Shown here piece after piece: positions 1,872-8,479 of a stretch of DNA of 12,462 bases. The position numbers and the translations under genes are program-made. The stretch spans positions 1-12,462 of the forward strand of contig DAOWOJ010000002.1 in assembly GCA_030642125.1 (NCBI GenBank). The letters run 5' to 3'. The stretch is from Candidatus Aenigmatarchaeota archaeon (GTDB lineage Archaea > Aenigmatarchaeota > Aenigmatarchaeia > DAOWOJ01). Positions within the stretch are counted from its first letter, which is position 1, and each line of letters begins with the position of its first letter. The notes under the pieces are model-generated. The model saw only the letters and a list, made by a program, of their open reading frames with translations, made no database searches and was not told the DNA's origin.

Positions 1872-2798
1872 ATGGAACATGTTTTAAATTCTGCTGTGGA
1901 TGAGATAATAAGGGTTAGAGACAACGGGGACATCATAAGAATTGTTTCTCATTTTGATGCTGATGGTTTGACATCTGCTGCTATAATAATGAAGGTCATG
2001 CAAAGAATACATGCAAATTTTCATTTATCTATAACAAATAGGTTGGATGAAAATATAATAAATAAACTAAAAAACGAAAACAGAGAATTATATATTTTTA
2101 CAGATATAGGATCTTCTTATTCAGATGTTCTTAATTTGAAGAATGTTATAGTATTGGATCATCATCAACCAAAGTTTGAACATGATATAATTCATGTTAA
2201 TCCGTTATTATTCGGAAAAGATGAGTGTTCTGGATCAGAAGTTACTTATTTTCTAGCCGATAAATTTGGTGGTAATGAAGATCTGTTGGATTTGGCTATT
2301 ATAGGAGCTGTTGGTGATTGTATGATAAATTATGATTCCAAATTGAATAAAAAAATAATAGATTTTGCAATAAAATCAAATTCTATACAAAAAAAACGTA
2401 GCATTAAAATTTTTAGTAAATGCACAAAACCATTATACAAGGCTGTGTCGTCTAGTTTTGATATGAATATACCAGGAATAACAGGAAATGAATCTGCGGC
2501 TGTTCAGTTTTTATCTGACATAGGAATTTTAAATAATGATCATACGAGGACATTTTCTGATTTAACAAAAGATGAAGAAAAAACATTAGCAGATTCAGTT
2601 ATAATTAAAAGAATAGAACATAATGAAGATAATCCTGATTCAATTTTTGAAGATACTTATTATTCAAATAGATTGAAAATGAATGCGTCAGAGATTGCGA
2701 TGATTCTAAATGCATATGGAAGATTGAAAGAAGCCCATCTTGGTGTTCTTTTTTGCCTTGGAATAGAAAATAATTACAAAAAAATATTGATTAAATAA
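1872..2798 (+). CDS. RecJ/GAN-like DHH phosphoesterase, N-terminal fragment
   Basis: The family is the archaeal RecJ-like DHH exonuclease (GAN), a manganese-dependent nuclease associated in many archaea with the CMG replicative helicase. The DHH motifs are in place: SHFDADGLTSAA (26-37), FTDIGSS (76-82), LDHHQP (95-100), and GAVGD (145-149). Further on, a conserved segment appears as MILNAYGRLKEAHLGVLFCLG. The frame then ends early at 2796-2798, just after GIENNYKKILIK. The DHHA1 half continues in another frame from about 2795. The intact gene would therefore span 1872-3127. Position between uS15 and eS1 matches an arrangement I recall from other archaea. Whether the two parts make an active enzyme is unknown. 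Confidence 0.85.
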   Translation: MEHVLNSAVDEIIRVRDNGDIIRIVSHFDADGLTSAAIIMKVMQRIHANFHLSITNRLDENIINKLKNENRELYIFTDIGSSYSDVLNLKNVIVLDHHQPKFEHDIIHVNPLLFGKDECSGSEVTYFLADKFGGNEDLLDLAIIGAVGDCMINYDSKLNKKIIDFAIKSNSIQKKRSIKIFSKCTKPLYKAVSSSFDMNIPGITGNESAAVQFLSDIGILNNDHTRTFSDLTKDEEKTLADSVIIKRIEHNEDNPDSIFEDTYYSNRLKMNASEIAMILNAYGRLKEAHLGVLFCLGIENNYKKILIK

Positions 2799-3127
2799 TA
2801 GAAACAGACAATGCTTTTTATTGTTTTGCAGGAAATGAGATAGAAGAGAATTTAATTGGTACAATAACTTCTATATATTCAAAGTCAGCAATTCGAGAAA
2901 AACCAGTATTTGGAGTGGTAGATATAGATAATGGTAATATGAAAGTTTCTCTTAGAGGATGTGAATTTAATATGAAATATATTTTGGATATGTTATGTGA
3001 ACAGATAGGTGGAGAATCAGGCGGACACGAAAGGGCAGCAGGAGCTATAATTCCTATTACATCAGAAAAAGTATTTATTGGAACTGTAGATAAAATAATA
3101 AATAAAGTTGGTGCATTAAATGATTAA
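2795..3127 (+). pseudogene. RecJ/GAN-like DHH protein, C-terminal DHHA1 fragment in shifted frame
   Basis: This frame is open from 2795 to the TAA at 3125-3127. It reads YCFAGNEIEENLIGT, then a core that includes KPVFGVVDIDNGNMKVSLRG, and then the DHHA1 hallmark GGESGGHERAAGA. This is the substrate-binding half of the same RecJ-like protein. The first usable start codon in this frame is GTG at 2915, inside the domain, so the earlier conserved residues could only be made by a frame change near 2793-2798. The shift is -1 (or +2). The linker between CLGIE and YCFAG also looks short for the family, so a deletion may be involved. It overlaps the eS1 start by 8 nt. Confidence 0.75.
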
Positions 3128-3668
3128 AAAAGTTAAAGGAAAAATATGGTTCGATGTATTTTCCCCAGAACAATTTGGAAATAAATTTATTGCAAGTGTT
3201 TTGATAGGAGAACCGAAGAAATTGATAGATAAAAAAATAGAAACAAAACCAAGAAATTTAATGACTGGAATAGATAATTTCTATTTAAAACTAATTTTTA
3301 GGATAATAGAAGTAAATGAAAACGCCAAAACAGAATTCTTTGGTTTTGAATATCCTAGAGACTATATAACTAGAATGGTAAGAAGAAGATCAAGCAAAAT
3401 AGATCTTATTATGAATTTCAAATCAATAGAAAACAAACGCATTAAAATGAAAATCATGGTTATAACATTTGGAAGAGCAAGATCTTCTGTTATTTCTGAT
3501 TTAAAGAAATATATAATTGAAATAATGAATGATATATTTGACAAAACGGATACAGAAGTATTCATAAATGAAGCGATAAATGGCATTTTAGAGAAAGAGA
3601 TTAAAAAGAAAGCATTAAAAATATTTCCATTAAGATTTGTTTTGATAAAGAAGTTTGAAATTTTATAA
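3120..3668 (+). CDS. rps3ae: 30S ribosomal protein eS1 (S3Ae)
   Basis: eS1 is an archaeal/eukaryotic small-subunit protein near the platform and mRNA exit. The 182-residue protein matches the family in order: a KGKIWFDVFSPEQFGNK start, IGEPKKLIDKKIE, LIFRIIEVNENAKTEFFGFE, and the basic segment YITRMVRRRSSKIDLI. A C-terminal part, KALKIFPLRFVLIKKFEIL, completes it. Family members are often near 200 residues, so this one is slightly compact. The ATG at 3120 overlaps the end of the broken RecJ-like gene by 8 nt, a typical operon junction. tRNA-Ser starts only 3 nt after its stop codon, so the tRNA is probably cut out of the same transcript or has an internal promoter. Confidence 0.93.
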   Translation: MIKKVKGKIWFDVFSPEQFGNKFIASVLIGEPKKLIDKKIETKPRNLMTGIDNFYLKLIFRIIEVNENAKTEFFGFEYPRDYITRMVRRRSSKIDLIMNFKSIENKRIKMKIMVITFGRARSSVISDLKKYIIEIMNDIFDKTDTEVFINEAINGILEKEIKKKALKIFPLRFVLIKKFEIL

Positions 3669-3707
3669 TTTGCCAGAATGGCAGAGCGGTAATGCGCTAG
3701 CCTGGAG

Positions 3708-3749
3708 ATTGATTTAGAAAATATTACAAACAAATGATTACTATCAGAT
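3708..3749 (+). other. Canonical 37/38 intron of tRNA-Ser, 42 nt
   Basis: A bulge-helix-bulge core is visible. The 4-bp central helix pairs CTGG (3702-3705) with TCAG (3744-3747), with one G-T pair. The 5' bulge is AGA and the 3' bulge is ATA. Cutting after the second base of each bulge leaves the loop CTGGAGA. The inner intron pairing is weak. Confidence 0.85.
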
Positions 3750-3782
3750 AGCTAGTGGGTCTTTGACCCTCCAGGGTTCGAA

Positions 3783-3806
3783 GGTACATTTTTAAAGTAT
3801 CGAAAA
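3783..3806 (+). other. T-loop intron (59/60) of tRNA-Ser, 24 nt
   Basis: This insertion splits the T-loop after TTCGAA. The bulge-helix-bulge is textbook. The outer T-stem is CAGGG/CCCTG, and the central helix pairs TTCG (3777-3780) with CGAA (3801-3804). The 5' bulge is AAG and the 3' bulge is AAT. The inner helix pairs GTAC (3784-3787) with GTAT (3797-3800), with one G-T pair. Removal gives TTCGAAT. Confidence 0.88.
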
Positions 3807-3820
3807 TCCCTGTTCTGGCG

Positions 3821-4636
3821 TTAAAATTTATAACCAATTTTCTCAAATGTTTTTTTCATTTTTAATGAATCTAGTTCAAGCATAGGACTTTCGCATATAA
3901 TTGTGATATCTATGTTTCTTTTCATTATTTCTTTCGCTAATGCTTCGAAATCTGGGTGTTTATTTATTGGGAGATGTCTTTTTTCTCCTTTTGGACCGAA
4001 TTCTATACCACTGAAATGTGTATGAACAAATTTTATTTTAAATTCTTCAAGAATATCGAAAATATCAGAGTAATCTATTTTTCCTTGTTGTCTAGCATAA
4101 ATATGTGCCCAATCGATTACTGGAACACATCTATTGTTTTTTTTACATATTTCAATTATTTCATTTAATGTACCAAATTGACATGTTTTTCCTGTTGTTT
4201 CTAATCCTAAATTAACATTCCATTTTTTATTTTTTATTATGTTTGACATTTCATCGCAGCTTTTTTTAACTAAGTATAATGCTTCGTTTTTCGATAATTT
4301 TCCATAATATGCTAGATGAAAAACTATTGTTTCTGCTCCCATATAAGAACCCCTTTCACATGATTCTAATATTCTACTTTTACTTTTTTCTATTTTTTGT
4401 TTTTCTGCTGAACAGAGATTTATGTAGTATGAAGCATGTATACTTAATTTTATATTGATGTCAATTGCCAATTCTTTTATTTCTTTTGATTGATCATTTG
4501 ATAAATATACATTTCTAACAAATTCTATCTCTTGCGCATTTAAATTTAATGTTTTTAAATATTTCAATGATTCTATTGTTCCTTTATTTTTCATAGAATA
4601 GCATTTTCCAGACGGACCAAGATATATATGTGCCAT
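3821..4636 (-). CDS. nfo: Endonuclease IV-like AP endonuclease (TIM barrel)
   Basis: This 271-residue protein belongs to the AP endonuclease 2 family, which nicks DNA 5' to abasic sites in base excision repair using a three-zinc centre. The expected metal ligands appear in order and near the positions known in E. coli Nfo. They are His67 (SIHASYY), His107 (VFHLAYYG), Glu146 (LGLETTGK), Asp175 and His178 (VIDWAHIYARQQG), His205 and His207 (HTHFSGIEFG), His221 (GEKRHLPI) and Glu249 (ICESPML). The Asp that forms a D-x-H pair in the bacterial enzyme is not obvious, with Lys two residues before His221. It is the last gene of a minus-strand unit, 17 nt after Sec61-beta, and its stop codon touches the tRNA-Ser gene. 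Confidence 0.88.
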   Translation of the reverse strand: MAHIYLGPSGKCYSMKNKGTIESLKYLKTLNLNAQEIEFVRNVYLSNDQSKEIKELAIDINIKLSIHASYYINLCSAEKQKIEKSKSRILESCERGSYMGAETIVFHLAYYGKLSKNEALYLVKKSCDEMSNIIKNKKWNVNLGLETTGKTCQFGTLNEIIEICKKNNRCVPVIDWAHIYARQQGKIDYSDIFDILEEFKIKFVHTHFSGIEFGPKGEKRHLPINKHPDFEALAKEIMKRNIDITIICESPMLELDSLKMKKTFEKIGYKF

Positions 4637-8414: not shown

Positions 8415-8436
8415 ACCGATATGTCGTGAGTTCGAA

Positions 8437-8451
8437 AGATTTATCAGAAAA
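8437..8451 (+). other. T-loop mini-intron (59/60) of tRNA-Phe, 15 nt
   Basis: The insertion sits at the same point as in tRNA-Ser, after TTCGAA and before the final T of the loop. The central helix is imperfect: TTCG (8431-8434) faces AGAA (8446-8449), giving three pairs and a G-A mismatch. Bulges AAA and AAT flank it, and GA/TC is the only inner pairing. Removal restores TTCGAAT. Confidence 0.78.
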
Positions 8452-8479
8452 TCTCACCTGTCCCATAATATGTGATTAT

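Follow-up and report, generated by a model that had tools for sequence, protein, structure and literature searches.

The stretch of DNA analyzed here (the window) is the entire 12,462-base contig C21 of an archaeal genome assembly (G000; 575,186 bases in 117 contigs, 57.44% complete), and it carries a tRNA-Ser(GGA) gene (3672-3820) between the genes for S3Ae and a TIM-barrel protein. This gene is interrupted by two introns, a canonical one at position 37/38 and a second one within the T-loop at position 59/60 (Table 1). Besides these, the window encodes a RIO1/Pkinase-type kinase that we take to be Bud32-like, S15, a RecJ-like DHH protein, Pth2, TctA, SecY, and the tRNA-splicing endonuclease subunit EndA. 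The 24-nt T-loop intron had been proposed by an original prediction made from the DNA letters, which our analysis bears out to the base, though the additional 37/38 intron (3708-3749) had gone unmentioned there.

The T-loop intron lies in a strict bulge-helix-bulge (BHB), which reads CAGGG TTCG AAG GTAC ATTTTTAAA GTAT CGAA AAT CCCTG. The T-stem CAGGG/CCCTG (3772-3776/3808-3812, 5/5 bp) forms the outer helix, followed by a 4-bp central helix TTCG/CGAA (3777-3780/3801-3804), the 3-nt bulges AAG (3781-3783) and AAT (3805-3807), and an inner helix GTAC/GTAT (3784-3787/3797-3800) with one G-T pair. Cuts after the second base of each bulge excise exactly 3783-3806 and leave the 7-nt T-loop TTCGAAT, and both the helices with their bulges and the restored loop are as the original prediction had described them. 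The 37/38 intron has a BHB of its own in which CTGG (3702-3705) pairs with TCAG (3744-3747, one G-T) between bulges AGA and ATA, with an outer helix CTAGC/GCTAG and a weak inner helix of 2/3 pairs. When both introns are removed, the exons give the complete cloverleaf of an 83-nt type II tRNA.

ARAGORN finds zero tRNA on the whole window, with or without intron mode, and likewise none in intron mode after removal of the 37/38 intron only. Once 3783-3806 is taken out, the same program in intron mode reports a tRNA-Ser(gga) with the 42-nt 37/38 intron. Rfam at gathering over the window leaves the tRNA-Ser gene undetected, and at E<=1 on 3600-3900 it yields only a chance match to a CRISPR repeat on the other strand and no tRNA. 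The 24-nt size argues against a self-splicing group I or II intron, and Rfam at gathering matches none in the window.

By itself, the T-arm BHB motif is not significant because dinucleotide shuffles of the window (n=200) yield a loosely defined T-arm-type BHB 1.4 times on average, with at least one in 75% of them. It is the intact surrounding tRNA-Ser, together with eight other genes of the same genome that are likewise arranged, that excludes chance. The stability of the 46-nt T-arm also exceeds that of shuffles (z -2.8; 1/200 equally stable). A model built from 22 T-arms of this genome and of genomes G019 and G061 (R1) scores the window intron at 39.3 bits, but this sequence belongs to the training set of R1. 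R1 also scores 20.2 bits at 8426-8457 of the window, inside the EndA gene, a match that we attribute to chance.

The same T-loop site is interrupted repeatedly in this genome. A T-arm pattern (GGTTCR-N10-40-YGAA-NNN-CC) gave eight matches, the window's included, versus none for a reversed control, and seven of the eight have a 5/5 T-stem; a variant with a 2-nt spacer missed the window gene and was rejected. R1 returned ten matches, i.e., those seven, two on contig C67, and one on C18 (23.3 bits) that we did not count since no tRNA is visible around it. All in all, nine of 15 clear tRNA genes carry a 59/60 intron, which is no census, as the genome was only partly read and T-loop sites were searched more thoroughly than others. 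Seven of these nine were resolved to cloverleafs, spliced by hand and then checked with ARAGORN, and five of them have three introns. The remaining six genes are intron-free or interrupted elsewhere (Table 1). None of the nine passes the Rfam tRNA cut-off, and two surface below it at E<=1; the T-loop introns thus hide these genes from the tRNA finders tried.

Table 1. Features of the tRNA-Ser(GGA) and EndA genes in the window, and intron sites in tRNA genes of the same genome.
Feature	Coordinates	Strand	Content or basis
tRNA-Ser(GGA) exon 1	3672..3707	+	acceptor 5' strand, D-arm, anticodon arm 5' strand; anticodon GGA 3704-3706
Canonical 37/38 intron, 42 nt	3708..3749	+	ARAGORN, junction pairing
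tRNA-Ser(GGA) exon 2	3750..3782	+	anticodon arm 3' strand, variable arm GGGTC/GACCC, T-stem 5' strand, T-loop TTCGAA
T-loop intron, site 59/60, 24 nt	3783..3806	+	splicing and ARAGORN intron mode, BHB pairing
tRNA-Ser(GGA) exon 3	3807..3820	+	last T-loop base, T-stem 3' strand, acceptor 3' strand, discriminator base G
Strict BHB	3772..3812	+	base pairing
EndA tRNA-splicing endonuclease subunit, 220 amino acids	8375..9037	+	presumed cutter; PF01974, TIGR00324 above curated cut-off
tRNA-Ser GGA (window)			introns 37/38, 59/60
tRNA-Ala GGC			introns 37/38, 59/60
tRNA-Lys CTT			introns D-loop, 37/38, 59/60
tRNA-Met CAT			introns 30/31, 37/38, 59/60
tRNA-Gly GCC			introns 29/30, 37/38, 59/60
tRNA-Asp GTC			introns D-loop, 37/38, 59/60
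tRNA-Thr TGT			introns 30/31, 40/41, 59/60
tRNA-Ala CGC, tRNA-His GTG			intron-free
tRNA-Tyr GTA			intron 37/38 only, T-loop uninterrupted
tRNA-Glu CTC			introns 37/38, 53/54, without T-loop intron
tRNA-Thr GGT			introns 37/38, 45/46, without T-loop intron
Initiator-like tRNA-Met CAT			introns 7/8, 37/38, without T-loop intron

A few of these loci deserve comment. The initiator-like tRNA-Met (L006, contig C75, minus strand) has a probable 7/8 intron for which the acceptor strand GCGG is the central-helix strand, and it adjoins the tRNA-Glu(CTC) gene with its 37/38 and 53/54 introns. The second gene at L221 (contig C67, minus strand) combines a GGGCCCG acceptor with a long anticodon-region insertion, a GCTTTTAA/TTAAAAGC hairpin, and a 57-nt T-loop intron; it may hold three or more introns. 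The count of nine in 15 omits a tRNA that is truncated by the start of contig C102 and has an intact T-arm, as well as a doubtful match on contig C69 (L009, 3495-3536, minus strand). The latter is a weak tRNA-like match with an odd T-arm (GGGTTAGAATCCC) that ARAGORN calls as tRNA-Lys interrupted by a 74-nt intron, and it is either a real tRNA or a chance match.

The window EndA is the sole PF01974 match in the incomplete genome. It keeps Y150 and H166 as the Tyr and His of the catalytic triad, while the Lys, presumably K156 in the EndA of M. jannaschii, is replaced by Ala. In the EndA of ARMAN-2 the triad Lys is K282 (PMC6379350). A comparison of the window EndA with homologs at loci L084-L163 found Ala, Thr, or Ser at the Lys position in 75 of 76 readable homologs out of 80, and in 71 of 74 in a second pass over the same 80. 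The loop before the His was readable in 67 Lys-less homologs, and in all of them it comprises 15-16 residues and bears a Lys, mostly as GPK; in the window EndA, this loop Lys is K161. Three homologs with the usual Lys have a short loop. Of the 80 kept named relatives, 51 bear the label Aenigmat(a)rchaeota, nine of the ten best among them, with best-segment identities of up to 60%. These EndA relatives place the host in the class of Ca. Aenigmatarchaeota (DPANN), in agreement with the earlier view that its genes do not look crenarchaeal.

Across this class, the bare T-arm pattern matched 155 of 156 genomes with often similar counts in reversed controls. It thus said little by itself outside the window's own genome (8 versus 0) and G019 (14 versus 1) and was replaced by R1. 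For the training set of R1, five of 27 T-arms had been dropped before alignment for lack of a 5/5 T-stem (the own-genome L164, 4/5; L174 of G019, 3/5; and L188-L190 of G005, 4/5 each), and L175 of G019 was dropped for an A-C central pair. At E<=0.01, R1 matched at least 62 of the 156 class genomes, with matches verified in part (17 in G019 besides the ten described above) and a run of 39 scored candidates per genome that may undercount. Among 30 examined loci of R1 matches, 28 show the strict arrangement, and ARAGORN reports a tRNA across the site in 20 of these 28 after splicing versus one before; without three loci from training genomes, it does so in 18 of 25 after splicing. Outside the class, R1 matched none of 17 genomes (reached via records labelled Nanohaloarchaea for 14, from 15 such records among the EndA relatives, Hydrothermarchaeota for one, and Altiarchaeales for two; 126-150 candidates each), a weak negative as the search had no positive control. 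The EndAs of the 14 Nanohaloarchaea-labelled genomes share the Lys loss, yet these genomes have no R1 match, which makes Lys loss less plausible as the sole cause of the T-loop introns. Within genus g16, R1 gave 17 matches for G019, three for G067, and none for G066, which is 69% complete, while G019 belongs to the training set; intron load seems to differ sharply within this genus.

We consider it very probable that the window holds a functional two-intron tRNA-Ser(GGA) gene whose T-loop intron is spliced via the BHB, most likely by the window EndA. The precursor tRNA-Ser would be transcribed whole, with the T-stem acting as outer helix and the conserved T-loop TTCG pairing with a CGAA supplied by the intron. 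Cutting in the cell after the second base of each 3-nt bulge would most likely fall to the EndA encoded 4.6 kb away, and a ligase, expected to be RtcB, would join the exons and thereby restore the loop TTCGAAT. The recurrence of site 59/60 in at least nine genes is plausibly explained by tRNAs generally bringing along the same TTCR half-helix together with a strong outer stem; an insert would then be spliceable there if it ends in YGAA plus two bases.

Several observations weigh against this account. ViennaRNA folds the T-arm at minimum free energy into an internal loop with the inner hairpin (-11.2 kcal/mol) rather than the BHB (-9.1 kcal/mol), i.e., it prefers the non-BHB fold by 2.1 kcal/mol and gives the central helix a pairing probability of about 0.12. 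Two of the nine genes with a T-loop intron (one on C55 with a long variable arm and the second gene on C67) yielded no cloverleaf. Elsewhere in the genome, strict register leaves only 2/4 central pairs for the D-loop and 37/38 introns of tRNA-Lys(CTT), at most 2/4 for the 40/41 intron of tRNA-Thr(TGT), and 3/4 for the 29/30 intron of tRNA-Gly and the 37/38 introns of tRNA-Thr(GGT) and the initiator-like tRNA-Met. Several automatic ARAGORN labels were wrong and were corrected by hand for the window's own genome only. That the 22 aligned T-arms pair perfectly is so by construction, given that T-arms short of a 5/5 stem had been dropped and that the script demanded central pairing, and among weaker R1 matches in 18 stretches from relatives, ten pass the filter of strict arrangement and tRNA, seven fail, and one repeats a known intron. 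Finally, known enzymes have a catalytic Lys that is absent from the window EndA.

On a wider scale, we tentatively propose that site 59/60 in Aenigmatarchaeota may generally serve as a landing place for small BHB introns. These would be copied between tRNA genes until most of the genes carry one in some lineages, and they would be cut by a rebuilt EndA whose catalytic Lys has moved from the usual helix into the inserted loop just before the catalytic His. We regard this as possible but less likely than not.

It is quite conceivable that the T-loop introns are instead of old age and have been passed on vertically within the lineage of each tRNA gene, given that they occur in many families of the class and that tRNA-Ser genes with a T-loop intron are found in several of these. 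However, different tRNA genes of one genome hold closely similar introns, e.g., a neighboring pair in G152 (z 9.8), a pair in G041 (z 11.2), and the Asp and Gly introns of the window's own genome (z 6.4), while weaker pairs are unreliable because the introns are short and AT-rich. Such similarity is consistent with the transposition of introns that has been described in Thermoproteales (PMC4033280, PMC4090602), and the uneven R1 matches in genus g16, with the qualifications given above, likewise speak against purely vertical descent.

The replacement of Lys by Ala could also mean that the intron is real but cut by a second EndA that bears the Lys and is absent from the assembly, with the window EndA being a structural subunit that lost this residue. 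Heterotetrameric EndAs with a non-catalytic subunit are known (PMC6379350), and PF01974 is matched at least twice in some relatives, in part by proteins of about 400 amino acids. Yet a purely structural subunit would have no need for the Tyr and His that the window EndA keeps. Relatives that are more than 90% complete, e.g., G007, G014, and G074, have one PF01974 match each, with Lys-less proteins in G007 and G014, and the Lys-bearing loop before the His is present in every Lys-less homolog whose loop is readable, making a missing second EndA unlikely in our view. That the tRNA has decayed through a short insertion into its T-loop and that another Ser(GGA) gene does the work is highly improbable: the silence of ARAGORN and Rfam at the locus would fit, and a second gene could be missing from an assembly that is 57.4% complete, but the other tRNA features are intact, a T-loop of exactly 7 nt results when the insertion is removed, nine genes of this genome have an interruption at this very site next to intact T-stems (seven with identified, different anticodons), and BLAST with the mature sequence matched only the window gene, so that the second intact copy which the original prediction had named as a refuting case was not found in this incomplete assembly.

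Apart from these subjects, the RecJ-like gene (1872-2798, 2795-3127) seems to be broken in two by a change of reading frame. Its match to the NCBIfam RecJ_archaeal profile ends at position 312 of 452, and a GGHERAAGA stretch, which we take to be DHHA1-like, lies in a different frame overlapping the stop of the first open reading frame. The split may be a sequencing error, decay, or a real frameshift.

Thermoproteales have multi-intron tRNA genes, for which PMC4033280 and PMC4090602 cite Sugahara (2008) and Fujishima (2010). Like the genes studied here, theirs carry non-canonical BHB introns, up to three per gene, that are alike between tRNAs (PMC4033280, PMC4090602); unlike them, the present host belongs to DPANN, and among the non-canonical sites seen here, one in the T-loop is the commonest, though our search favored that site. 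The original prediction had considered T-arm introns to be known mainly from Thermoproteales and unusual elsewhere, a range that needs correction in view of multi-intron tRNAs in Nanoarchaeum equitans, ARMAN-1/2, and others (PMC4033280) and of three Asgard genomes with introns in 92-95% of tRNA genes, often at non-canonical positions (PMC11291895). N. equitans and ARMAN-1/2 resemble the present host in being small archaea whose tRNA introns are multiple or non-canonical (PMC4033280, PMC6379350), but their EndAs are of (alpha-beta)2 and epsilon2 type, as opposed to a single 220-amino-acid EndA without the triad Lys. In the Asgard Atabeyarchaeia and Freyarchaeia, most tRNA genes have introns as well, often non-canonical and over half of them several, but these belong to a different phylum, and the term "T-loop" has no occurrence in the main text (PMC11291895). 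Site 59/60, given as an intron site in "some archaeal genomes" (PMC4033280, PMC4090602), is therefore already known, as are BHB introns, three-intron tRNAs, and intron-rich tRNA sets (PMC4090602, PMC4033280, PMC11291895). What is new is the phylum and the unusually concentrated recurrence at one T-loop site; we found no paper on tRNA introns of Aenigmatarchaeota in the open-access literature.

Our results widen the range of non-canonical tRNA introns in the T-loop to include Aenigmatarchaeota, a phylum of DPANN. Because none of the nine genes with such an intron passes the Rfam tRNA cut-off, they also suggest that tRNA counts for some Aenigmatarchaeota genomes are too low. Many tRNAs with an intron at this one site between near-identical flanks constitute natural replicates in which the spread of tRNA introns can be studied, and an EndA that lacks the Lys allows a direct test of what this enzyme requires for catalysis.
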